The notes below the pieces were generated by a model. It was given only the letters and a program-made list of their open reading frames with translations, did not search any database and was not told the origin of the DNA. 33,395 nucleotides of DNA from positions 1 through 33,395 of the IMG/VR virus record IMGVR_UViG_3300026488_000040. The stretch is one strand, 5' to 3'. Source of the stretch: a virus. This document shows positions 1,353 to 30,776 of the stretch, one piece after another; the stretch's first letter is position 1, and every line of letters begins with the position of its first letter. Position numbers and translations under genes: made by a program.

Positions 1353-4300
1353 ATGGATATAAATGAAATGATAGGTTTATTTAATTCCCTTAAACAGGAA
1401 GGAACAAATTTAGAACACACTTATGGAGAACAAGTAGCAGAACAGGTTGAAAAACACAATGCAAACATCGAAGGTTATGGTTCCATTACCCATGAAATAA
1501 AACAAGGTGTTGACGAAGCTATTACGCTTCCTGCATTATCTTTACATTATGCTATTACTGGAGATGATACTGCCCTCAAAAGAGCGTTAGAACAATCATC
1601 GTTTAATCCTGTAACAAGAAAATTAGAAGATAATGGAATTACTGGAGCTATAAATGTAGCTAGTACATTATATTTCCCATTAAAAGGTGCTTCTCTTGCA
1701 AAACTTGTAGCAAGTAAGGCTTTTGAAAAATTCGGAGATAGAGCTTTAAAAAATTTTGCAACAAAAAAAGTTGTAACAAATCTGTTTGAAAGAAAATCCC
1801 TTAAAGAAACATTGGTTACTTCTGCATCTTCTCAAGCAGGTGCGGCTCTTCCAATTACTTTAAACCAAACTGGATTAGAATCAACAATGGATAAAAAAGG
1901 AAATATTCATATTCCTACAAGAAAAGAAATGGCTGAGATATTTGGCTGGAATTTAGCTTTTGGTGCACTAATAGATGGATTAATCACAACCGGAATAAAT
2001 ATTAAAAATAATGTTAAAATAAAAAATGTTTTAAAAGATATTTCCAAAGAGGGTGATTATGCAAAAATATCTATTCCTCAAGAGTATAACATTAAAGCTC
2101 CTGTTTTATTATTCAGATATATAAAAGAAAAAAATGGATACATAGCTGAAAAGTCAGATAATGGTTTTATATTAAAAGATGCCAATGGAAAAGTAGTTTC
2201 CAATGAACCATTGACAAGAGAATCATTAAAAGATATATCTGCTAAATATCCTCTGTTGATTCTTGAAAAACAAGGTGATAAATTAAAATTCAGACTTACT
2301 GGAAACTCACAGAACCAATTACTATTTGGCAAATCAACAAACAAATTAGGAGATATTAAAGGATACTTTGACGATGATAATATATACATAAATATAAAAG
2401 ATTCTAACATTAAAAACAAAAGAATATTTATCAAGAAACTTGGTTCTGAAAGACTAGTTAAACCGACAACACTTAAAGATGAAGATTTTGAAAAAACAGA
2501 GCCAACACCAGAAAATGCCAAAAAAAGTGAAGACCTTGACTGGATTATCGATGATGCACAAAAAGAATATATAGATGCTATTCAAAACAACGAAAACTTT
2601 AAAAACATTGTTGATACTAAAATATCTGAAACAGAACCAACAGTTGTGTATGGCAATCTCCCTAATAACGTAAAAAAACTATTCAGAGAGAAATATAATA
2701 TTAACTCAAAAGGTGAATTTGAAAACACTATCGAAGCAATAAAAGACCATAATGAGTTTAAAGATTATACTTATGATGATTTATTAGACGATATGATAAA
2801 CAGTGACTTTTCACCTAAAAAGCAGTCAGAACCAACAGAAAACTATGAAGCTGAATCTACATACGGTACTGGTTCTTCTCACATAAAAGAAGATATTGAC
2901 GTAATTAAGGATGAAGCTAAAAATAATATTTTCTCAAGACTTGACAGAACCAACACCTCAAGATCAGGAAGACCACCAACATCTGAAGAATTTATTAATA
3001 GGGCTATCGACAACAAATTAAACGAAGAACTGTCTTCATTTAGAACACTATATGAAACTGACCCTGATAAATTTAAAGAAGATACAGGTTTTGATTCTTA
3101 CGATGAATTGGTTTCTCATATACAAGAGAAATTAAGAACCAACCCAGAAGAATTTATGAACATTCATCTTGAGGAATCAAAAAAAGGTTCTAAAACAAAA
3201 GAGTTTGAGTATAACTACAAAGGTAACAGGTTTAATTTAGACATATCATTAAAACCTGAACTATTCTCTGACATTAAAAAACAATATGCTTCAAAACAAA
3301 ACACAAAAGAGTTTAAAGCTAAACAAACATCTAAAAGATTTGATTTAAGAAAAGAATTAATTGGTTCTGAAAAAGACGAATTAATCATAGAAAACGGAAG
3401 AGATACGGAAACATATTCTCATAGAGAATCTGATGAAGTGTTCACAACAATTAATGATATGTTATATGGAAGTTTGTATAAAGAAAAAATAAAAACAGGA
3501 ATCAAAGAACTTGATGAACTGTTTAATACTAATGTGATCAATAAAATATTCAACTCAAAACCAAATTACAAAAAATATAAAAGAAAAAACATAAATGAAA
3601 AAATTGAAGAAATAGATTTCCTTAAAGAAAGAGTAGATAAACTGCTGGAAAAATATAATATGGATAATATCAGAAAAATTTTTGATAAGCACGAAAAAAA
3701 ATGGTTAAGTATCCCAAGAGCAACAAGAATGGAGATGGGGCATATTCTCATAAAAAGAAGAGAGAATCTTTTACTTATTAGACATCTTTTAGACAGAATA
3801 ACACAAAAAGAATTAAATAATATAAGAAAAAGTCTAAAAACTAAAACATTACAAGAAGCAAAAGATGGATATGAGAAACATCTTGTAGAAAATTACTTAA
3901 AAAAATATAAAAACAACTTAACAGAAAAACATAAAAACTTTGATATTGAGAAAATCTATAAAGAAAAAAATACAAAGAATGGAAAAGAACGATATCAGTT
4001 ATTTAAAAACCTTCTAAAAGAGAGATTGGATTCTATTGATTATAGAATTAAAGAACTTGAAAAATATACAGATAAAAACAAATCAAAAGAAGAGCTCGTT
4101 GGTTCTGATTTTGAAGAGGATATAAAAACAGCAAAATCAAACAAAGAAAAATTAGAAGAACTCAATGCTGAAAAAGAATTATTAGATGATATTCTATACG
4201 GCTCAGAACCAACCGTTGAGAAACAAACATTAAAAGAACTGATAAAAGAATATCCTGAACTTTTCTTTATTAGAAGATTAAAAAAAGACTTTAACAAAGT

Positions 4301-7300
4301 AAAAGAATTGCTTAATACTGATAAACAAAGATATAATGAAGAAGTAAAAAGACGAATTAAGGTTCTTAAAGACGAGTATAATAAACTAACTAAAGAAAGA
4401 GAACAGTTAATAAATCATTTAGAAGGCACTGAAGAAATAAAAAATAAACAAGATTTTAGATTTACTCTTGATGAAAAAGGATTAAATAAAATTAATGAAG
4501 AAATAGAAAGGATATCTTCTGAATTATATAAGTTGGAAAAAACTATCAAGTTTGAAGAACCAACAGAAGAACTCAAGCAAATAAAAAAAGACTTTGACAT
4601 AAAAAACATCAATGATTTAGAAGAAAGAATCACTACTAAAATCTCCGTTGGTTCTGACACGAAATTAACAAAAGAAACAAATTTTGGAACCAACCCACAC
4701 AGATTTGTAGATTTTAAAGTAAGAGAGATAAGCGAGAATGGTAAAGCAACAGAAAGTGAAATAATTATCTCAACAAAATTCTTTGATGAGAACGGAAATA
4801 TAAAAGAACCAACAAAATACGTAGAGACAATAACTCACGAACTATTGCACATAGTTACAAAAGATATGAAACATTATCCTGATATCTACAAACTTGAAAG
4901 AATAGATTTAATCTCAAAAGAATTAAAACCTATCGTTGGTTCTTTAATGAAAAATGCAAAGACAAAAAAATACGTTGAGGAACTATATAGTATGCTTAAC
5001 TCCGAAAGATTTAAAACGCTTGATAATGAGGAAAAAATATCTTACATATTTGAAAAACTATTCGGTAATGAAATAATCAAAAACAACAAAGCTATAAGAG
5101 AAAACCTAAATATAAAATCAAATCCTATTGATTTGCTATCAAAACTAAAAACAAAACTAAAAGAAACAATAAAAGAAAAACAAGACCTATATGACTTGCT
5201 TGATGAATCATCAAAGAAAATAGCAGATAATGAAGCAGAACCATACAAAGAAGCTCTATTCTTAATAGACAACCTTCAAAGAAATCTTGAGAAAGTTATA
5301 AACATAAACGGACATATTAAACTTGCTTATCAAGGCATTAAAAACAAAAAATTTGAAGCATACTTAAAGACTGACTTGCTTTTAGATAGAGCTATGTCAA
5401 ATGAATTATTTCAAAATATCTCAAATATGCTTGATGAATTAACGTTGCTCGAATCATTTAAGATAGACAGGCAAAAAGAAGTTGTTGAACAGATAGCTTC
5501 AATAACAAAGGGATATGAGTCAGAACTAACTAAAAAAACTCAATCAATTCAAGATAAAATCAAATCTGAGATTTTAAAAGAGTCAGACAATTCAATAGAA
5601 AAAGCAAAAGAGCTTGATTATCATCTTGGAAGAGCATTTGTAAACGGATTGCACAAACTTACAAAATATCTTAATGAGGCAGACTCTCTAAAAGATTTTC
5701 TTAAAAAGATAGAACCAACAGAGGGCATAGCAAGGAAAGTAGCTTCAGACATATACAATGAATTCAAAAAATCAGATATATATCTATCTGATGAAGCTCT
5801 ATTAAAAATAAGAGATATTATTAATAAAGGGATAAGAGATATTGTAGATTTTAAAAATATAAAAGCTAAAAAGAATATTGCTAACTCTGAAGTAATAATG
5901 AATAAAATCAAATCAATCGTCTACAAGGACGTTGGTTCTGAAGAAAACATTATAAAAGCCAGAGAACTTTTTGCTTCAGGATACAAAGATGTCTTAAATG
6001 AAATAATAGATGTTGAGATAGCTAAAAGAAAATTTACTAATTACATTAAAAACAACACAAGTTCATTTAATAAAACAATAGAGAATTTACTCATTAAAAA
6101 GCCAGAGACGGTTAAAAAGTTTGCTGAATACTGGAACACTCAAGAAAAGATTTCTAAAGACTACGGGCTTTATAATCAACAATTTAATGCTAATCCTGAG
6201 ATGTCTTTTATGAGATATGACAGAAAAATATGGATAATGACTAAAAAACCAAAAGGAAAACAATATACTATCCTTAGAACTATTGCAAACAAAGACTTAA
6301 AAGGGAAAACATCATATATGTATATTGTTGCAGTTGACGACCCAAGAGCAGTAATTGGTTCTCAAGAAAGCATAGTTGCAGAATTCAGTCCTAAAGGAAA
6401 CGTAACTGGAATATATGAAGCACCTGTACTTGGTTCTTTTAAAAGAGAAACAGTATATATTAACGGCAAAAAGACATATAGATACTACATTGGGAAAGGA
6501 AAATATAAGACATACATCAATTTAACAAAGAATATGAGGGTAAAACCTGTTCAAGGCAAAAAGGGCATATATAAAATCCAATATATGCTTGACCCTGAAG
6601 AATTAGCAAGGTTTAAATTATTCGGTAACCACAATAATATGATTGATTTATCTTTCAGCAGACAATTCACAAGAAATGCTTATTTAAGAGAATATTCAAG
6701 AATTGCTAAAAAAGCAAGGTCACAAGAACTACAAATTCTTTTAAAAGAAAAAGTCTTTTTAACCAAAGAGGATTATGAAAAATTAGAACCAACAGAGCAG
6801 GAAAAATATGTAGAGATAAAACTTAAAGACTATGGAAGATATTATGTTCAAAGAAGATTTGAACATCAGTTTAAAGGAACAAGAGGGATTAATTTAGCTT
6901 CTCTTAAATTAAGAGATAAACAATTATCATACTTTATTAATGCAAATGTTATAAGACCTCTTGTAGGTGCTTTAAAAGCCTTAAGAGGAGTAGTTCTGAC
7001 ATATAACCTTGCTTCATACATAAACAGTGCTGTAAGCTCTTATTTGCTGTATGTTACAAATGCCAATGAACCAAGAAAAATATATGAACACATTGACAAT
7101 ATTAGAAAAGATATTGAAGAATACAAAAACCTTCTTGACAAATATTCAGACTATTACTTAAAAGGAGAGTTTGAAAAAGCCAAACAAATAAAGAAACAGC
7201 TTGAAAATAATAAAATCCATTATGCTATAGAAAACGGTATTTATTCCACAATAAGAGAAGACACTTATCTTGTTAAGTCTTATCAGGAAAATGAGTTTAC

Positions 7301-7886
7301 AAAAACAATAAGACCTCTTATGAAAGATGAAAAAGCATATCAGTTTATTAAAAACTGGTGGGCATTACCTGATTCAAAAGTAGGAAACAAACTTGGTTCA
7401 ATATTTGACAAAACAGAACTTTATCCAAAATTAGCATTATTCTATGATGGACTTGAGAATGGTTTAAGTAAAGAATTGGCTCTACAAAAAACTATTATGT
7501 GTTTCCCTAACTACGGAACCAACCTGCCTCAAATCATTGGATACTTCGATTTTATCAGTCCTTATACCAAATGGGTAATGAACTATCCTAAAATTATTTA
7601 TTCGGCCATGAACCAACACAGGAAGAGATTTATGATGGTTAATGCTCTATTCTATGCCTCTATTTATGGTTCTTATGCTTTAAACGGACAGAATAAAACA
7701 GACGAATGGTATAAGGATAAAAATTTTGCGAAGTTAGGTAAAGATACGTATTACTATATGAACTCATTAAATCCTTATTCATTACCTTATCAGTATGGAA
7801 TGAGCGATGAATTCAGTTTATACGGACACTCTTTATGGAGATTATTGTTTCCTGTGGACGTTAATCCTTTAACGTTTAAACACTAA
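1353..7886 (+). CDS. Giant probable internal virion / DNA-ejection protein with HELLH motif
   Basis: This 2177-residue protein is the largest product in the window and starts at ATG 1353 after the ribosome site AAAGGAT. The N-terminal 220 residues hold small-residue and hydrophobic stretches of the kind seen in phage internal virion proteins. Residues about 400-1100 are highly charged, with long likely coiled coils. A zinc-peptidase-like HELLH (H1162, E1163, H1166) lies in the middle. The last about 300 residues (aromatic-rich, with IIGYFDFISPYTKWVMNYPK) recall the C-terminal region of large polyvalent phage proteins. Giant proteins of this kind in podoviruses are ejected with the DNA. It is the last gene before a terminator. 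Virion location and peptidase activity are inferred; no downstream third zinc ligand was identified with confidence. Confidence 0.8.
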   Translation: MDINEMIGLFNSLKQEGTNLEHTYGEQVAEQVEKHNANIEGYGSITHEIKQGVDEAITLPALSLHYAITGDDTALKRALEQSSFNPVTRKLEDNGITGAINVASTLYFPLKGASLAKLVASKAFEKFGDRALKNFATKKVVTNLFERKSLKETLVTSASSQAGAALPITLNQTGLESTMDKKGNIHIPTRKEMAEIFGWNLAFGALIDGLITTGINIKNNVKIKNVLKDISKEGDYAKISIPQEYNIKAPVLLFRYIKEKNGYIAEKSDNGFILKDANGKVVSNEPLTRESLKDISAKYPLLILEKQGDKLKFRLTGNSQNQLLFGKSTNKLGDIKGYFDDDNIYINIKDSNIKNKRIFIKKLGSERLVKPTTLKDEDFEKTEPTPENAKKSEDLDWIIDDAQKEYIDAIQNNENFKNIVDTKISETEPTVVYGNLPNNVKKLFREKYNINSKGEFENTIEAIKDHNEFKDYTYDDLLDDMINSDFSPKKQSEPTENYEAESTYGTGSSHIKEDIDVIKDEAKNNIFSRLDRTNTSRSGRPPTSEEFINRAIDNKLNEELSSFRTLYETDPDKFKEDTGFDSYDELVSHIQEKLRTNPEEFMNIHLEESKKGSKTKEFEYNYKGNRFNLDISLKPELFSDIKKQYASKQNTKEFKAKQTSKRFDLRKELIGSEKDELIIENGRDTETYSHRESDEVFTTINDMLYGSLYKEKIKTGIKELDELFNTNVINKIFNSKPNYKKYKRKNINEKIEEIDFLKERVDKLLEKYNMDNIRKIFDKHEKKWLSIPRATRMEMGHILIKRRENLLLIRHLLDRITQKELNNIRKSLKTKTLQEAKDGYEKHLVENYLKKYKNNLTEKHKNFDIEKIYKEKNTKNGKERYQLFKNLLKERLDSIDYRIKELEKYTDKNKSKEELVGSDFEEDIKTAKSNKEKLEELNAEKELLDDILYGSEPTVEKQTLKELIKEYPELFFIRRLKKDFNKVKELLNTDKQRYNEEVKRRIKVLKDEYNKLTKEREQLINHLEGTEEIKNKQDFRFTLDEKGLNKINEEIERISSELYKLEKTIKFEEPTEELKQIKKDFDIKNINDLEERITTKISVGSDTKLTKETNFGTNPHRFVDFKVREISENGKATESEIIISTKFFDENGNIKEPTKYVETITHELLHIVTKDMKHYPDIYKLERIDLISKELKPIVGSLMKNAKTKKYVEELYSMLNSERFKTLDNEEKISYIFEKLFGNEIIKNNKAIRENLNIKSNPIDLLSKLKTKLKETIKEKQDLYDLLDESSKKIADNEAEPYKEALFLIDNLQRNLEKVININGHIKLAYQGIKNKKFEAYLKTDLLLDRAMSNELFQNISNMLDELTLLESFKIDRQKEVVEQIASITKGYESELTKKTQSIQDKIKSEILKESDNSIEKAKELDYHLGRAFVNGLHKLTKYLNEADSLKDFLKKIEPTEGIARKVASDIYNEFKKSDIYLSDEALLKIRDIINKGIRDIVDFKNIKAKKNIANSEVIMNKIKSIVYKDVGSEENIIKARELFASGYKDVLNEIIDVEIAKRKFTNYIKNNTSSFNKTIENLLIKKPETVKKFAEYWNTQEKISKDYGLYNQQFNANPEMSFMRYDRKIWIMTKKPKGKQYTILRTIANKDLKGKTSYMYIVAVDDPRAVIGSQESIVAEFSPKGNVTGIYEAPVLGSFKRETVYINGKKTYRYYIGKGKYKTYINLTKNMRVKPVQGKKGIYKIQYMLDPEELARFKLFGNHNNMIDLSFSRQFTRNAYLREYSRIAKKARSQELQILLKEKVFLTKEDYEKLEPTEQEKYVEIKLKDYGRYYVQRRFEHQFKGTRGINLASLKLRDKQLSYFINANVIRPLVGALKALRGVVLTYNLASYINSAVSSYLLYVTNANEPRKIYEHIDNIRKDIEEYKNLLDKYSDYYLKGEFEKAKQIKKQLENNKIHYAIENGIYSTIREDTYLVKSYQENEFTKTIRPLMKDEKAYQFIKNWWALPDSKVGNKLGSIFDKTELYPKLALFYDGLENGLSKELALQKTIMCFPNYGTNLPQIIGYFDFISPYTKWVMNYPKIIYSAMNQHRKRFMMVNALFYASIYGSYALNGQNKTDEWYKDKNFAKLGKDTYYYMNSLNPYSLPYQYGMSDEFSLYGHSLWRLLFPVDVNPLTFKH

Positions 7887-8007: not shown

Positions 8008-8634
8008 TTAAATCCTTTGTGAATCTTTTTCAAATCTTTTTTTAGCTTTCCAAGCTACTTTATAATCACATCCTACAAGTTCGCATATCTTATAAGGACT
8101 TGCATAAGGATATTGTTTATAATATTCAATACATTTTCTTGTTTTAGAACCATCCCTTGATTGAGCCTTACTTTTCCACATATCATATAAATCGTGGTAT
8201 TTCAATATCTTCACAAGCTCAGAAAATTTTATTCCAAGTCTTCTTCCAGTCTTGTTAAGGTTATAGTTGTTCTTCTCAATTTCTTCAATTAGTTTTCTTC
8301 TGAATTTTGATTCTTTCCAGAAACCAGGTTTTCTTCTTTTGATTTTTTTAGAACCAAACATGCATCCTATCCTTGATACAGCTTCTTTATTAAGCCCTAC
8401 TATATCTGCTATCTGTTGGTTCGTTAATCCTATTTTTCTCAATTCAAGAACCTTATTGATTCTGTATTTTCTCATAGAGAACCCAAAATGGTTCATCATT
8501 CCTCTTAATGTTTCTTCAGATTCTTTTGAACCAGTCAGTTCGTTATATTTTAGAGCCAATGCTTTGTAAGAATAAAGATTGAATTCATCAATTAAAGACA
8601 AAAGATATTCATAATTCTCTTTTGTATATTTCAT
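8008..8634 (-). CDS. Multi-helix-turn-helix DNA-binding protein
   Basis: The 208-residue basic protein starts at ATG 8634 after AAGGACTAGAA. At least one clear helix-turn-helix is seen at about residues 66-90 (RKIGLTNQQIADIVGLNKEA). Two similar helical pairs follow near residues 122-145 (NLNKTGRRLGIKFSELVKIL) and near the C-terminus (SPYKICELVGCDYKVAWKAKKR). Repeated resolvase/sigma-like HTH units with basic linkers suggest sequence-specific DNA binding, perhaps to a repeated site. It sits at the end of the leftward operon that starts with the ribbon-helix-helix gene near 9561. Whether it regulates transcription or acts in replication cannot be told from sequence. Confidence 0.75.
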   Translation of the reverse strand: MKYTKENYEYLLSLIDEFNLYSYKALALKYNELTGSKESEETLRGMMNHFGFSMRKYRINKVLELRKIGLTNQQIADIVGLNKEAVSRIGCMFGSKKIKRRKPGFWKESKFRRKLIEEIEKNNYNLNKTGRRLGIKFSELVKILKYHDLYDMWKSKAQSRDGSKTRKCIEYYKQYPYASPYKICELVGCDYKVAWKAKKRFEKDSQRI

Positions 8635-8643
8635 TTCTAGTCC

Positions 8644-8883
8644 TTATAACCCAAATTTTTGTCTTTCTTTTTTATCAAGTTCATCCTGATATCTTGTTGC
8701 ACATTGAGATTCAATCTCTAAATCACTTCTACAATTTAATGTTATAAAATCAAGACTAACATCATCTTTTTCAAATTCAACAATAGCAAATCTTGTTGGT
8801 TCTCCATTGTCTTTTTTAAGATCAAAGACTTTAATGTTAGCACCTTCAACCAATGATTTAGGTAATGGTTTTACTGTTCTCAT
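8644..8883 (-). CDS. Small conserved-looking protein of unknown function
   Basis: The 79-residue product starts at ATG 8883 after AAAGGATAAAAA. The composition (alternating hydrophobic and charged residues, FAIVEFEKDDVSLDF) suggests a small beta-rich fold followed by a charged helix. No known domain is recognised. It lies between the winged-helix and multi-HTH genes, 9 bp from the latter, and is probably cotranscribed with them. Confidence 0.65.
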   Translation of the reverse strand: MRTVKPLPKSLVEGANIKVFDLKKDNGEPTRFAIVEFEKDDVSLDFITLNCRSDLEIESQCATRYQDELDKKERQKFGL

Positions 8884-8947: not shown

Positions 8948-9388
8948 TTAGAACCATACTTCAGAAGCATCTACATCTTTAATATGCTTCTCTAATTTTA
9001 ATGGTTCTCTCTCTACTTCGCTAAACTCAATACGCCGTTCAATTTCTTCTGGTATCCAAATTTTATACAGTGTCGCAAATTTATTTTTTTTAAATGGATA
9101 TTTTTTATAGGTTAAGAAACCTTTTTCTTTTAAAGATTTTATTTTTCTTTTTCTTGTTATATTTGGAATTTTTAATTTTTCTTCAAAATCTTCTGGTCTT
9201 ATAAACACTTCTCTGTATCTTGGCTCTCTGTTTAAAGTTTTTCTTAATATATATCTATATATTCTTTCTTCTATTGGATCCATAATAAGTAAGTCATAAT
9301 TCATATCAAAAATTTGATCAATTAGTCCAATAGCATATCTACCATCAATTATTCTTGTGTCTTTTAATTTTGGATACTTTAATCTCAT
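8948..9388 (-). CDS. Probable winged-helix DNA-binding protein
   Basis: The 146-residue protein begins at ATG 9388, three bases after the stop of the upstream ribbon-helix-helix gene, with no strong ribosome site, so translational coupling is likely. Residues about 40-105 fit a winged helix: helix (ERIYRYILRKTL), helix-turn-helix (RPEDFEEKLKIPNITRKRKI), then KSLKEKGFLTYKKYP as recognition helix end and wing. The tail is acidic. Being second in an operon behind a palindromic repeat array, it could be a replication initiator or a transcription regulator acting there. The family is not identified beyond the fold guess. Confidence 0.65.
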   Translation of the reverse strand: MRLKYPKLKDTRIIDGRYAIGLIDQIFDMNYDLLIMDPIEERIYRYILRKTLNREPRYREVFIRPEDFEEKLKIPNITRKRKIKSLKEKGFLTYKKYPFKKNKFATLYKIWIPEEIERRIEFSEVEREPLKLEKHIKDVDASEVWF

Positions 9389-9390
9389 GG

Positions 9391-9561
9391 CTAAATCTTT
9401 TTATTGGCATACATTCTTACTATAAACTCTATAGTCTTCGTTTTTGTTATATCATTCAATGAACCAAATAGATGTTTGTTTTCTTCATATAACCTTTTTT
9501 TAGCTTTATTTAATAACTCTTCAAAATCATTTCCAAATCTAAAGGAATACCTTTTTCTCAT
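9391..9561 (-). CDS. Probable ribbon-helix-helix regulator next to palindrome array
   Basis: The 56-residue product begins with a basic strand (MRKRYSFRFG) followed by two helices, the size and layout of Arc/MetJ-type repressors. The ATG at 9561 is chosen over the in-frame ATG at 9594. It has AAAAGGGATTG in front of it, and the upstream ATG overlaps the -10 box of the promoter at 9593-9622, so it would not be in the transcript. It is the first gene of the operon running to 7883. The seven-palindrome array begins about 80 bp upstream of its start and is the obvious candidate binding site. Confidence 0.68.
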   Translation of the reverse strand: MRKRYSFRFGNDFEELLNKAKKRLYEENKHLFGSLNDITKTKTIEFIVRMYANKKI

Positions 9562-9592
9562 ATCAATCCCTTTTATTTTTTTTTGTTTCAAC

Positions 9593-9622
9593 ATTATACA
9601 TAAAAAATTATCACGCTGTCAA
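9593..9622 (-). promoter_or_regulatory. Consensus sigma70 promoter for the leftward RHH operon
   Basis: On the minus strand TTGACA (9622-9617) and TATAAT (9598-9593) match consensus exactly with an 18-bp spacer. Transcription should begin near 9586, just ahead of the ribosome site of the gene starting at 9561. The nearest palindrome of the upstream array lies 18 bp beyond the -35 box. Confidence 0.8.
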
Positions 9623-9639: not shown

Positions 9640-9829
9640 GGTATCAGAAAGATACCAAATAGTAGAGTATCAGAAAGATACTAAATAGTACGGTATCAAA
9701 TTGATACCAAATAGTAGAGTATCAAATTGATACCAAGATTAAATCTTGGTATCAGAAAGATACCAACTTTTTAACTCTTAGTATCACAAAGATACTATAA
9801 AAGAACCCTATTTAGTATCTCTGTGATAC
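9640..9829. repeat. Array of seven GTATC-N5-GATAC palindromes
   Basis: Seven 15-bp sites start at 9641, 9667, 9693, 9719, 9749, 9781 and 9815. The first four are spaced exactly 26 bp apart, separated by near-identical 11-base linkers around AAATAGTA. Spacing then widens to 30, 32 and 34. Centres are AGAAA (three times), AAATT (twice), ACAAA and TCTGT. Sites 4 and 5 are joined by a further perfect palindrome (9729-9753). There are no genes from 9595 to 9959. Candidates are an operator array, a partition centromere or iterons of a replication origin. Confidence 0.9.
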
Positions 9830-9922
9830 TAAATATATAAGGATGGAAAGAAAATTACCTAATATATATGTATCTCTAAAACATCTTATTTGAATGTTTT
9901 ATATAAACTTATTTTTCGATTC

Positions 9923-9958
9923 AGAACCAACGCATACAAATACTGTGTTGTTGGTTCT
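9923..9958. repeat. Inverted pair of the 9-mer word at helicase gene end
   Basis: AGAACCAAC (9923-9931) and GTTGGTTCT (9950-9958) form a 9-bp stem with an 18-base loop, immediately downstream of the helicase stop codon at 9960-9962. There is no U tract on the minus strand, so it is not a standard terminator. It could stall transcription or protect the 3' end. Confidence 0.55.
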
Positions 9959-9959
9959 A

Positions 9960-11006
9960 TTACCAACTCTCTACAAATCCATATTTGTTTACAGTCTCTT
10001 TGTACCAGAAATCAGGAAAATATCCCATACTTGCCAGTTTCTTTCCATTGTTCAGTATATTCCTTATTCTTGTCTTGTAAGCCTTGATAGTAGATGCTTC
10101 TTTGTTATACACAGATAATTTTTCTAACACATCTTCCATATTCTTGATAATCCACTCTATCGTCTTGGTTCTTAACATCCAACCATATTTTCTTCTATGA
10201 TATTCATTTGCTATCAGAACCAACAGCCTCACATTGTATGTAGCATTGAATAAATCTCTCAACTCATCTACACTTAACAAGTGTAATGAATTCTTTTCAA
10301 GTTCTTCAAGATAAAGCTCAAATTCTTCAATCTTTTCTCTTGTTATCTCTACAACCTCTTCGTTGGTTCTGTTGATTAACTGTTCAACCATAGTCTGCTG
10401 AAGTTTGTGTTTTTTAAATTCTCTTTTATCCTTAAACGGAACAAAATCTTCAGGTATTCCCATCCTAATCAGACAGTCTGTGATATCATAAAACTCTGTA
10501 AATTCTTTACCAGGATATATTCTTTGTGACCTCATTACTATCTGATGAAACAAAGGATACGATTTAGTTGGTCTAAGGTTAATGATAGTATCTACATTCG
10601 GTGAATCGAATCCGATTGTTAAAGAAGTCACTGAAACTAATGTTTTAATCTTTCCTTTCTTGAAATCATCAATCACCTGTTGGTTCTTGTCTTTATCTTG
10701 TTTAGAGTGAACCACCTCTGCTGTTGGTTCTATCTTCTTAATCAAAGAACAGTATTCCTCTGCCATAGCAATATTGGAAGTGAAAACCAATGTTTGTCTT
10801 TTATTCAGAACCAACGATTCAGCAAACTTAACAAACCATTCTTTAAACTGCTTATCAGAGTACAGTTCTCTAATATCCTCTGCACTATAATCTGCTACAC
10901 CTTTATCAATCTTTTCAAAATCCATTGTTGTAACTATTCTTGGAATGTAATACTTAACATGTGATAAGTATCCTTTCTCTTCAGCTTCCCTTTGAGATAT
11001 AGGCAA
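9960..11006 (-). CDS. SF2 helicase, C-terminal fragment after frameshift
   Basis: This 348-codon frame continues the helicase begun at 11494. It has the second RecA-like domain: motif V-like SVTSLTIGFDSPNVDT and motif VI-like QIVMRSQRIYPGK, followed by a helical C-terminal extension of about 150 residues. The frame opens only a few codons upstream of a TTG at 11006 with no ribosome site, so it is unlikely to start by itself. Restoring one T in the TTTT run (minus strand, plus 11005-11008) would join the halves as NNTFLPISQREAEEKGYL, which reads as a normal helicase. The interruption is either a recent mutation, a sequencing error or, less likely, programmed shifting. Confidence 0.75.
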   Translation of the reverse strand: MPISQREAEEKGYLSHVKYYIPRIVTTMDFEKIDKGVADYSAEDIRELYSDKQFKEWFVKFAESLVLNKRQTLVFTSNIAMAEEYCSLIKKIEPTAEVVHSKQDKDKNQQVIDDFKKGKIKTLVSVTSLTIGFDSPNVDTIINLRPTKSYPLFHQIVMRSQRIYPGKEFTEFYDITDCLIRMGIPEDFVPFKDKREFKKHKLQQTMVEQLINRTNEEVVEITREKIEEFELYLEELEKNSLHLLSVDELRDLFNATYNVRLLVLIANEYHRRKYGWMLRTKTIEWIIKNMEDVLEKLSVYNKEASTIKAYKTRIRNILNNGKKLASMGYFPDFWYKETVNKYGFVESW

Positions 11007-11494
11007 AATGTATTGTTAAACATTTCAATTCCATTGAAATCAAAAGGAGTAGCAGTTAAACCTATCTTCTTCGTTGGTTCTAATTTATTAAGAATCAGTT
11101 TAAACCTGTCACCCTCAATTCTCTTATGATACTCATCTGCTATCAGTGCTATTTTACCAGTTGGTTCTAATTTATTGTTTTTAAGCCTGTTATAAAGCGT
11201 TTGGTCTGTTGATAGTATGATAGGACTATTTTTATCAGTTCGTTCATTATCGTTTAAGATAGACACGTTTAACGATGAATTTTTAAAATGTTCTCTCAGC
11301 TGATTAATAAGCTGAGAGATATCGCTAATAATAAACACTTGATATCCAGAACCAACAAGCTCTTTAGCAATGTGAGGAATAAGGAATGTTTTTCCTAATC
11401 CTCCCCAAAGCTCAATAACTAATTCATTCTCATCAGAACCAACAAACTCCTTGGTTCTTTCAATTACCTTTTTTTGATAACCCCTTAGTTTCAT
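10934..11494 (-). CDS. SF2 DEAD/DEAH-like helicase, N-terminal fragment
   Basis: The 186-residue frame carries the first RecA-like domain of a superfamily 2 helicase. Walker A is GGLGKT (residues 31-36), the DExH box is DEYH (120-123), and motif III-like TATP is at 147-150. It starts at ATG 11494 after AAAGGCATATA, inside the end of the preceding membrane-protein gene. About 30 residues after motif III it leaves the frame and stops at 10934 after a lysine-rich tail, while the remaining helicase domain continues in another frame. Phage helicases of this type unwind replication or recombination intermediates. The gene is dense with the GGTTCT word, with an inverted pair at 11435-11458. Confidence 0.8.
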   Translation of the reverse strand: MKLRGYQKKVIERTKEFVGSDENELVIELWGGLGKTFLIPHIAKELVGSGYQVFIISDISQLINQLREHFKNSSLNVSILNDNERTDKNSPIILSTDQTLYNRLKNNKLEPTGKIALIADEYHKRIEGDRFKLILNKLEPTKKIGLTATPFDFNGIEMFNNTFCLYLKGKLKRKDTYHMLSITFQE

Positions 11495-14214: not shown

Positions 14215-14748
14215 TTATATAAACTCCCAAACATATCCTTTATGTGTTTTTCTTTTTTTGTTTGCTACAGCATTTATGTGTGAAGCATAAAAACCTCCAA
14301 TTCTTTGAGCATCCATTGCACAATCCCATATTTTTATTATTTTCCCATCTTTTGTTTTTTGTGCTACTTTTTTACTTCTACTATGTTCTTTTCCATATAG
14401 TTTTTTTGATAATCCATTATCATATGCGTGTTGGTTGTTCTCACTATATGTAACCCATTCTAAGTTATCTAATGAATTGTTTAACTTATTACCATCTTTA
14501 TGGTTTACACAACATTTATTTTCAGGATTAGGTATGAATGCTTCTGCTAATAATCTATGTAACAAAAGTTGTTTATATTTTCTATTTCCCGTTTTAAGAG
14601 TAACTATCTTATATCCATGTTTTCCTATACTTGGTTTAAGCCATTTTCCATTATGTCCACCTCCTCTATTTCCATTACGATGTGGTCTAGCGTAAATTCT
14701 CCCATCTTCATATAGTTCATATCTACCGAATAATAAAACTTTTTTCAT
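14215..14748 (-). CDS. HNH homing endonuclease (NUMOD4-type)
   Basis: This 177-residue free-standing endonuclease has an N-terminal NUMOD4-like part (YELYEDGRIYARP), an HNH nuclease core with LLLHRLLAEAF (H64) and VNHKDGNKLNNSLDNLEWVT (H83, N91), and a C-terminal NUMOD1-like DNA-binding helix pair ending KTHKGYVWEF. Such enzymes cut cognate DNA lacking the gene and spread by repair. The start at 14748 has AAAGGACATAAA before it; the upstream in-frame ATG at 14790 lies upstream of the promoter and lacks a ribosome site. The gene has no copy of the GGTTCT word although flanking genes do, as expected for a recent arrival. Expression appears controlled by the hairpin/promoter just upstream. Confidence 0.88.
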   Translation of the reverse strand: MKKVLLFGRYELYEDGRIYARPHRNGNRGGGHNGKWLKPSIGKHGYKIVTLKTGNRKYKQLLLHRLLAEAFIPNPENKCCVNHKDGNKLNNSLDNLEWVTYSENNQHAYDNGLSKKLYGKEHSRSKKVAQKTKDGKIIKIWDCAMDAQRIGGFYASHINAVANKKRKTHKGYVWEFI

Positions 14749-14751
14749 TTT

Positions 14752-14784
14752 ATGTCCTTTACATTTTTGTGTAGGGACATTATA
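14752..14784 (-). promoter_or_regulatory. Extended -10 promoter overlapping an RBS-sequestering hairpin
   Basis: On the minus strand TGGTATAAT gives an extended -10 (TATAAT at 14784-14779); no good -35 is seen. ATGTCC (14780-14775) can pair with GGACAT (14757-14752), with an inner TACA/TGTA pairing. This buries the ribosome site AAAGGA of the endonuclease gene. A transcript starting from this promoter (about 14772) would lack the 5' arm and leave the site free, whereas read-through RNA from upstream would be folded shut. This is the same logic as T4 I-TevI. Confidence 0.65.
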
Positions 14785-14796
14785 CCACAATTTTGT

Positions 14797-29704: not shown

Positions 29705-30139
29705 ATGGCAACAAAAAGATATTCAGTTGGAAAGGATTGGGTTCAGATAACTTTTAATGGTGAGATATGCATTGTTCAAAATAATGAGAAGAGCGTTGTC
29801 GAGGTGACTCATGTTCTAAAAGGAATTACTCCTAATGAAAACACTCATGGTATGTATGTTTATCCATATCAAACTTATGAGTATACTTGGGGAAAGAATA
29901 ATTTATGGGCAAGATGTATTTCAAAAGGAATTGCTACAATTACTGTGGTAACTAATGCAATTGATGAAGATGAACCAGATGATATTAGCAATGTAGAATA
30001 TAATATAGGATTTGCTAATCCTACGAAGGTCGGTTCTGTTACAGTACCAGATAATACTAATATGGCTTTAATAAATCCTGTAGAAATTGATACAATAACA
30101 CTTGGCAAGAATGCTAATCTATATCTAATAGGAGAATAA
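29705..30139 (+). CDS. Beta-rich probable virion appendage protein
   Basis: Starts at ATG 29705 after AAAGGAATAA, directly after the endolysin stop. The 144 residues are almost all beta-prone (KDWVQITFNGEICIVQNNEK) with an acidic patch in the middle and regular valine/threonine strands at the end. No family is recognised. Adjacency to the fibre gene suggests a capsid decoration or head/tail fibre protein. Confidence 0.62.
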   Translation: MATKRYSVGKDWVQITFNGEICIVQNNEKSVVEVTHVLKGITPNENTHGMYVYPYQTYEYTWGKNNLWARCISKGIATITVVTNAIDEDEPDDISNVEYNIGFANPTKVGSVTVPDNTNMALINPVEIDTITLGKNANLYLIGE

Positions 30140-30140
30140 A

Positions 30141-30776
30141 ATGGGAATACAAATAAACAGTAAGGGAATCTATCTTGAAGACGGAACTCCAAAAATTGAG
30201 TTTGACGATATTTGTAGTGAAAGCTATATTAACAAGAAATTAATCACTAAAGCAGATATTGACGATGTTTATACAAGAGATAAAGTAGATGAAAAATTAA
30301 GTGTTAAAGCAGATATTAGCAATGTTTACACTAAAGACGAGGTGGATGAAAAAATAGACAATATTGCATCTATTGAGCCTTTAAATATCTATAAAACCTT
30401 ACAAGCAGGAAGTAATGTTACAGTTAAAGTAGATTTAGGATTAGAAGCTGGAGAATACAGAGCAGTCTTTGGTAGTATTTATATGAGTGCAAATGGAGAC
30501 TTGGATGACCACTTCAATGTTACCATAGGAAAAGGTGCTAGTGCAGTTAATACTTGGGGTAATAAAGGATATCCTATAAAAGCTCCAACTGGTTATAGCT
30601 CACCTGTAACGCATATGGGTGACAATCAGGGCGGTGGAAAATTAAAAATAGGTCATTATGGTTATTGGACAGAGTTTATAGCTTGGCTGAATGATGATGG
30701 AACATTGACTTTAGACGTCAGAGGAAATGATACCCATCCATATATTGCATTAAAAATCATAGGAGGTATAAAATGA
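30141..30776 (+). CDS. Tail-fibre-like trimeric protein
   Basis: The 211-residue protein starts after GGAGAATAAA. Two repeats of a fibre-type heptad unit (KADIDDVYTRDKVDEKL at about 37-53, KADISNVYTKDEVDEKI next) are known from phage tail fibres as coiled-coil/beta-prism necks. The C-terminal about 130 residues form a glycine- and tryptophan-containing beta domain probably contacting the receptor or virion. It overlaps the next gene by 4 bp. It lies in a 1.2-kb segment with no GGTTCT word, suggesting recent replacement. Confidence 0.72.
   Translation: MGIQINSKGIYLEDGTPKIEFDDICSESYINKKLITKADIDDVYTRDKVDEKLSVKADISNVYTKDEVDEKIDNIASIEPLNIYKTLQAGSNVTVKVDLGLEAGEYRAVFGSIYMSANGDLDDHFNVTIGKGASAVNTWGNKGYPIKAPTGYSSPVTHMGDNQGGGKLKIGHYGYWTEFIAWLNDDGTLTLDVRGNDTHPYIALKIIGGIK

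Follow-up and report, generated by a model that had tools for sequence, protein, structure and literature searches.

Among the initiator proteins of phages and plasmids, O of phage lambda has a winged-helix-like domain, and RepB of pMV158 is not known to be a winged-helix protein. The lambda O site is described, in the part of PMC7466680 that deals with it, as a 19-bp imperfect inverted repeat situated beside AT-rich DNA. For the RepA_N replicons, the sections of PMC7145576 concerned with iterons describe semi-palindromic repeats, with inverted parts that are mostly at least 5 bp long, which converge on a poly-A tract; the initiator attaches to them through its N-terminal domain. In the PLE satellites, initiator and origin are exchanged modularly, and the pertinent passages of PMC8263062 raise the possibility that an origin-directed nuclease drives this exchange. 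Moreover, the passages of PMC5703833 on plasmid initiators report a hybrid Rep of pPR9 whose HTH_36 domain was exchanged together with the origin, class the RepL plasmids as rolling-circle, and present the copG-repB operon, where a small ribbon-helix-helix (RHH) gene comes first and the initiator gene second, behind one promoter.

The locus considered here lies in a phage related to N4. In the open-access literature, we found no account of this cassette type in N4-related phages, nor of how replication starts in phages with this N4-related core.

The dyad array and the operon beside it

The stretch of DNA analyzed, hereafter the window, is an IMG/VR viral record of 33,395 bases (G000). Its terminase and primase show low-identity matches to N4-type podophages (684 records for the former, 465 for the latter). 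Holin, endolysin, ThyX, Sak4, and ssDNA-binding proteins were also recognized, to which the nearest relative, G001, adds a portal and a major head protein. An exact 127-base direct repeat is present at the ends of G001, G009, G010, and G011, and not of the window or L012; these repeats can be understood because an assembler closing a circle would leave them. A 2177-aa virion-type protein (window 1353–7886) has no family match, with like-placed proteins of 1859 aa in G001 and 1957 aa in G011, and positions 14215–14790 contain what we take, by eye, to resemble an HNH endonuclease gene with a TTG start.

The feature under study is a run of seven perfect GTATC-N5-GATAC dyads (Table 1), with start-to-start spacings of 26, 26, 26, 30, 32, and 34 bp. 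Chance would provide 0.03 such dyads per window, and seven or more sites were obtained in none of 100 dinucleotide shuffles; no further exact copy exists elsewhere in the record, and the reversed pattern, taken as a control, has 0 matches in it. The linkers of sites 1–4 are near-identical (D1/D2 families) and resemble tandem copies of a 26-bp unit. The spacers are A-rich or A-tracts in six of the seven sites (AGAAA, AAATT, ACAAA) and TCTGT in the remaining one. With arms of 5 bp and a mostly A/T spacer of 5 bp, the centres of the half-sites are 10 bp apart, i.e., one helical turn, as expected for a symmetric dimer. On the side away from the promoter, the 70-bp segment starting at 9847 has the lowest GC content within 150 bp of the array, and segments as AT-rich make up 0.64% of all 70-mers of the window. 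DnaA boxes are not in excess in the window (2 found, 1.97 expected).

On its other side, the array faces a sigma70-type promoter, which ranks first among the 15 promoter-like sites found between 7800 and 12000. The distance from site 1 to the −35 hexamer is 18 bp, and no dyad overlaps the promoter. An earlier note, made from the letters alone, had described seven sites, the first four 26 bp apart with matching linkers and the last three spread out, and a perfect −35 lying 18 bp from site 1; each of these statements was borne out.

The same note had named an RHH protein as the product of the first gene of the leftward operon and a winged-helix protein (wHTH) as that of the second, and both assignments stand in part. 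Regarding the first, the 56-aa start preferred by the earlier reader is kept in G001, where the protein is 96% identical. Searches of the window protein against Pfam, PHROG, and NCBIfam gave no family match, and its structure model, composed of two helices (mean pLDDT 69), found no match in the PDB with Foldseek. The protein is tentatively called RHH-type because of this two-helix model and because better-recognized RHH genes occupy the like position in L012 and G010. Regarding the second, the profile matches of the 146-aa protein do point to a winged helix, yet they are weak and all sub-threshold: Rep3_N (0.042) and DnaD_N (0.095) in Pfam; the DnaD-like PHROG 186 (0.006) and the replication initiation PHROGs 8102 and 428 (0.027 and 0.076). 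The RepA_N domain (PF06970) gave no match in this protein at E up to 1, and no match was found among annotated phages or plasmids. A search with its alignment recovers only G001, the profile search of that alignment against the PDB returned chance-level matches only, and the structure model is poor (pLDDT 36) and unsuited to a fold search.

Beyond the array lies the conserved helicase gene, which in the window is split by a frameshift (1535 bases, as against 1536 in the relatives) that reflects either a pseudogene or an assembly error. The window helicase is also unlike those of its relatives near Walker A and the arginine-rich C-terminal motif.

Table 1. Features of the array, the operon, and the flanking genes (window coordinates)
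Feature	Position	Strand	Sequence	Remarks
Conserved flank, 208-aa HTH gene	8008..8634	-		Profile match; comparison with relatives
79-aa gene adjoining the cassette	8644..8883	-		C-terminal remnant inside the G011 cassette (75% over 36 aa)
Winged-helix (wHTH) protein gene, proposed replication initiator	8948..9388	-		146 aa; weak profile matches
Small RHH-type protein gene, putative copy-control protein/autorepressor	9391..9594	-		67 aa, or 56 aa from internal ATG 9561
Sigma70-type promoter	9593..9622	-	TTGACA-18-TATAAT	Hexamers 12/12; kept in G001
Dyad site 1	9641..9655		GTATC-AGAAA-GATAC	Exact match; arms same in G001
Dyad site 2	9667..9681		GTATC-AGAAA-GATAC	Exact match; arms same in G001
Dyad site 3	9693..9707		GTATC-AAATT-GATAC	Exact match; arms same in G001
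Dyad site 4	9719..9733		GTATC-AAATT-GATAC	Exact match; arms same in G001
Dyad site 5	9749..9763		GTATC-AGAAA-GATAC	Exact match; also scores as terminator-like hairpin, both strands
Dyad site 6	9781..9795		GTATC-ACAAA-GATAC	Exact match
Dyad site 7	9815..9829		GTATC-TCTGT-GATAC	Exact match; spacer orientation reversed in G001
AT-rich flank, candidate unwinding element	9830..9930			70-bp window from 9847 has 15.7% GC; record 29.5%
Conserved flank, phage DEAD/ResIII helicase gene	9960..11494	-		Frameshifted in the window

Conservation, replacement, and recurrence of the unit

The earlier note had held that lack of the array in relatives retaining both genes would speak against its proposal. G001 retains both genes, its wHTH being 90% identical to that of the window, and it keeps all seven sites with all their spacings; L012 and G011, which have no GTATC array, have a wHTH different from that of the window. 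Between the window and G001, the arms show 0 changes in 70 bases, whereas 12 of the 119 other array positions changed. The chance that twelve changes would all miss the arms is about 0.003, or about 0.008 if the three changes in the spacer of site 7 are counted as one. Overall, the cassette is 88–94% identical between the two phages, which is the same range as for the helicase gene, and the spacer bases are the same in six of the seven sites. In site 7, the spacer is turned around in one phage relative to the other (ACAGA vs TCTGT on the same strand), which looks like a short local flip between the inverted arms.

G001 also carries a second RepL-like wHTH gene of 151 aa (29725–30180; L009 9725–10180; RepL 32.5 bits), preceded at 73 bp by a single perfect 19-bp dyad, with no array. 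This gene is 89% identical in G011 and was not found in the window record.

In L012, a different cassette occupies the same place. The helicase gene DNA is 88.1–88.7% identical among the window, G001, and L012 (88.7% for the window and L012), and the L012 helicase is 94% identical to that of G001. The order in L012 is helicase, a 94-aa gene, four GTTCA-N5-TGAAC dyads (at 3571, 3598, 3624, and 3646), TTGACA-18-TATAAT, a 66-aa RHH-type ORF, a 142-aa wHTH, and the 208-aa gene, with promoter hexamers and 18-bp spacing identical to those of the window. The 66-aa ORF matches the repressor PHROG 876 (1.7e-4) and the 142-aa protein the replication initiation PHROG 270 (3e-7). A tblastn comparison (E up to 0.01) found no window wHTH in L012, and neither the RHH nor the wHTH of L012 in the window or G001. 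The AT-rich flank of L012 is weaker than that of the window (6.7% of 70-bp segments, as against 0.64%). In the right flank, the identity of the window's 208-aa gene is 80.5% to that of L012 and 69.4% to that of G001, although the cassette is common to the window and G001, which indicates that the cassette junctions have recombined.

Two further relatives carry still other units. G011, whose helicase gene DNA is 81.1% identical, has two GTGACA-AAAA-TGTCA dyads (GTGAC/GTCAC) placed 34 bp apart, then about 370 bp containing the remnant of the 79-aa gene, and then the gene of a 176-aa wHTH that exceeds the cut-off set by Pfam for RepL (21.4 vs 20.3) and also matches HTH_36; no RHH gene was found in this cassette. 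G010 is more distant (helicase 32% identical), and its cassette was read beyond the helicase, across the closed contig ends. It contains three TAGTA-N5-TACTA dyads (spacings 27 and 33 bp) and an RHH gene that matches RHH_1 below the cut-off (0.038) and the repressor PHROG 876 (7e-6), and that is related to the RHH gene of L012 (E 2e-7). Its 128-aa wHTH is homologous to that of the window (32% over 88 aa, E 4e-6), and its sole Pfam match up to E 0.1 is Phage_rep_O (2e-4; 22.2 vs a cut-off of 28.7). Since an RHH gene of the L012 type is here joined to a wHTH of the window type, RHH and wHTH types have been combined differently across the phages. The G010 unit sits between helicase and primase, with the wHTH directly before the primase gene.

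In all, four different site sequences were seen, each with a wHTH protein of its own that is either different from the others or strongly diverged. At the level of DNA sequence, these comparisons show the whole unit, i.e., array, AT-rich DNA, promoter, RHH gene, and putative initiator gene, to be replaced at a fixed place in the relatives. The search with the helicase alignment covered the best 80 of 334 relatives, and, beyond those already known, L141 (G009) and L142 (G010) were checked for the cassette; L013 stops before the cassette and was left out of the count. Applied to five long phage contigs, the array detector (one 5-base arm, spacers of 2–7, three or more sites within 250 bp) picked out no array besides those of the cassettes, apart from one weak three-site match at 22.4 kb of G001, and it gave nothing in 20 of 20 block-shuffled windows. 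It found no array in G009, a distant relative (helicase 36% identical). A scan of all viruses for GTTCA-N5-TGAAC produced at least 120 stretches, and the pattern was discarded as too unspecific.

When the viral collection, from which near-identical records may be omitted, was scanned in full for two phased GTATC sites, only G001 and one contig outside this group, that of the unrelated phage L006, came up. In L006, three exact dyads and one near-dyad surround a 102-base stretch of 7.8% GC, and a 193-aa wHTH gene follows the array with no RHH gene between them. The best PHROG matches of this protein are replication initiation proteins (1.5e-5), and it also matches DnaD-like loaders. BLAST detects no significant similarity between this protein and the window wHTH, so the common site sequence would reflect either convergence or divergence beyond the reach of BLAST.

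The layout also occurs on plasmids. The G011 wHTH retrieved 22 plasmid records: five Bacillus plasmids with E 2e-5, and others that are weak (E 0.3 to 0.8 where listed). The relation is clear for an 8.6-kb Bacillus plasmid and weak for plasmids of 2.7 kb. Two members of the weak group (L337 and L339; 2.7–2.8 kb) have four copies of TTATG-AAAAT-CATAA, 21–22 bp apart, before the wHTH gene and with no RHH gene in between, and the L339 protein matches PHROG 678, replication-initiation O-like (2e-6). Besides the wHTH, neither has an initiator candidate, and a mobilisation-type gene is also present. The plasmid of 2675 bases is given in the PLSDB table as single-gene; it has, in addition, a long ORF split at the record ends (285 aa open at one end, 141 aa at the other), which is taken to be one mobilisation gene because a “plasmid recombination protein” is annotated in the sister plasmid. 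The wHTH is, therefore, its only initiator candidate and not its only gene. L338, a Bacillus plasmid with a related wHTH, has just two distant dyads.

A separate observation concerns short words dispersed through these genomes. The word AGAACCAA/TTGGTTCT has 111 copies in the 33.4-kb window, 65 of them as AGAACCAAC, on both strands, mostly within genes and with near-random spacing, and it also occurs in G001, G011, and L012. Between the window and G001, whose aligned DNA is 16% divergent, 54 of the 71 copies in aligned stretches have not changed (another 40 are unaligned), as against 8 of 26 for seven control words, so that the word seems to be maintained by selection; its distribution resembles that of an uptake sequence. 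A scan of bacterial genomes for inverted AGAACCAAC pairs gave at least 120 stretches. None of the six genomes in which the word was counted is enriched to the degree of the phage, the highest count being 43 in 3.9 Mb vs 65 in 33 kb of phage, and a literature search on dispersed over-represented words in phages found nothing relevant. Two AGAACCAAC words face each other just past the helicase stop (window 9923–9958) and could fold into a hairpin. G001 has the pair as well, and L012 and G011 have altered forms of it. G009 (L340–L343) has a dispersed word of its own, GATCCAAY, with 75 copies in 61.6 kb (reversed control 0) and none in the four other records searched (G010–G013). The words of the window and G009 differ by one base (GAACCAAC vs GATCCAAC), as if recognition had shifted.

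A candidate iteron origin and its alternatives

The dyads probably mark a replication origin, as palindromic iterons to which the wHTH binds as initiator; the RHH protein would act in copy control or autoregulation, and the cassette would be the unit of exchange. The unit is read in this way because of the geometry of the dyads, the likeness to RepA_N and lambda O, and the flank of 15.7% GC. The wHTH from the adjacent leftward operon would bind every 5-5-5 dyad as a dimer, coat the array, open the flanking AT-rich DNA, and recruit the replisome. It is preferred to the RHH protein as the binding partner mainly because L006 and the plasmids have arrays but no RHH gene with them. The RHH-type protein, first in the operon, would repress the promoter or limit copy number, as CopG does on plasmids, a role proposed because copG-repB has its RHH gene in first place as well. 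All five elements (array, AT-rich DNA, promoter, and the genes of the RHH protein and the initiator) would be inherited and exchanged between related phages as one cassette, and each initiator would thereby keep its own site sequence. Several copies of one site stand beside a gene for a putative initiator in the window, L012, G010, L006, and two plasmids. As for what maintains the exchange, a tentative and rather doubtful idea is that origin alleles are traded within a habitat as the common allele is targeted or titrated, for instance by superinfecting relatives with identical iterons or, as in the ICP1/PLE conflict, by origin-directed nucleases and satellites; this would make the cassette an immunity-type locus with the RHH protein as incompatibility factor.

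Several observations count against this assignment. The profile matches of the window wHTH stay below every cut-off, DnaA boxes are at chance level, G009 has no array by the detector, and G011 and L338 have just two dyads each, those of G011 lying about 370 bp away from the wHTH gene. The tie between the G011 protein and the 2.7-kb plasmids is through weak matches (E 0.3 to 0.8). Replication-initiator profiles also catch other wHTH proteins, such as the 151-aa RepL-like protein of G001. In addition, the GC skew, proposed in the earlier note as a check, does not support an origin here. Its extremes, a minimum at 27.8 kb and a maximum at 7.5 kb, fall at changes of gene direction, no switch occurs at the array, and the polarity is opposite to that of an origin near 8–10 kb; moreover, forks leaving the array would meet both arms of genes head-on. 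Such a pattern does weigh against a theta origin at the array, unless the skew reflects transcription only.

Of the three options that the earlier note left side by side, namely an autoregulated operator, a parS-like site, and an iteron origin, the comparison favours the last, with the wHTH as the binder, and autoregulation may come on top of it. A purely transcriptional operator or enhancer, through which the RHH protein, the wHTH, or both would regulate the leftward operon and which would take no part in replication, is unlikely. It would explain why a perfect promoter, that of an operon for two DNA-binding proteins, starts just 18 bp downstream of the array, and the single dyad upstream of the RepL-like gene of G001 suggests that such proteins may be plain regulators. 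However, seven sites across 189 bp with none overlapping the promoter are beyond the needs of repression, and the layout recurs on small plasmids with no other initiator candidate, beside a stretch of 7.8% GC in L006, and between helicase and primase in G010.

A role as a partition centromere of the parC/parS type, with the RHH protein binding the array while the phage persists like a plasmid, is improbable. RHH proteins such as ParR and ParG do bind centromere arrays, phage B83 offers one case, with iterons and an RHH adaptor, in the relevant part of PMC6669507, and four relatives of the window close as circles. On the other hand, among the window proteins scanned, which cover part of the genes, there is no ParA, ParM, or TubZ-type motor and no integrase or lysogeny gene, and the arrays of L006 and the 2.7-kb plasmids have no RHH gene. 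The least credible reading takes the dyads as hairpins, either transcription terminators or single-strand promoters of the kind that serve the virion RNA polymerase of phage N4: terminase and primase are related to those of N4-type phages, every site can make a stem of 5–8 bp, and site 5 has a terminator score on both strands, but neither giant virion-type protein, whether that of the window (2177 aa) or that of G001 (1859 aa), matches any family of virion RNA polymerases, remote divergence being possible, spacers are kept in six of seven sites whereas a terminator loop could vary freely, and a sigma70-type promoter comes after the array.

The cassette in relation to known replicons

With the candidate iteron origin as the preferred reading, one likeness is to the RepA_N replicons (pSK41, pTZ2162) and the RepA/iteron module of the PLE, in which, as far as the sections cited above describe them, a wHTH initiator lies beside semi-palindromic iterons with an A-rich centre, and replicon modules are swapped among otherwise similar elements (PMC7145576, PMC8263062). 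Unlike the RepA_N systems, the window has no RepA_N profile match, its putative initiator is small and short-tailed, an RHH-type gene comes first, and the carriers are lytic-looking podoviruses. Lambda O and its ori share with the locus a phage initiator, here a putative one, and several inverted-repeat sites next to AT-rich DNA, according to the corresponding part of PMC7466680. The Phage_rep_O match of the G010 homologue goes in the same direction, but it is below the Pfam cut-off; in addition, the lambda iterons are 19 bp long and lie inside the O gene, whereas the window dyads are 15 bp long and lie upstream of the promoter. The RepL/HTH_36 initiators of plasmids (pSN2 type; pPR9) are similar to the protein of the G011 cassette, but the window protein matches neither. 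Finally, the copG-repB operon of the pMV158 type, as outlined in PMC5703833, has, like the window operon as read here, an RHH gene and then an initiator gene behind one promoter, with the difference that CopG binds over the promoter and the window dyads are upstream of it.

Against this background, what is new here is the exchange of a putative initiator together with its origin in an N4-related phage group, the very small size of these initiators, their RHH partners, and the strict 5-5-5 dyads. One locus offers several site sequences, each with a small putative initiator to match, and it suggests that the origin, usually deemed core machinery, may be a swappable module in lytic-looking phages, while the 5-5-5 dyad layout found on 2.7-kb plasmids links the phage units to plasmid replicons.
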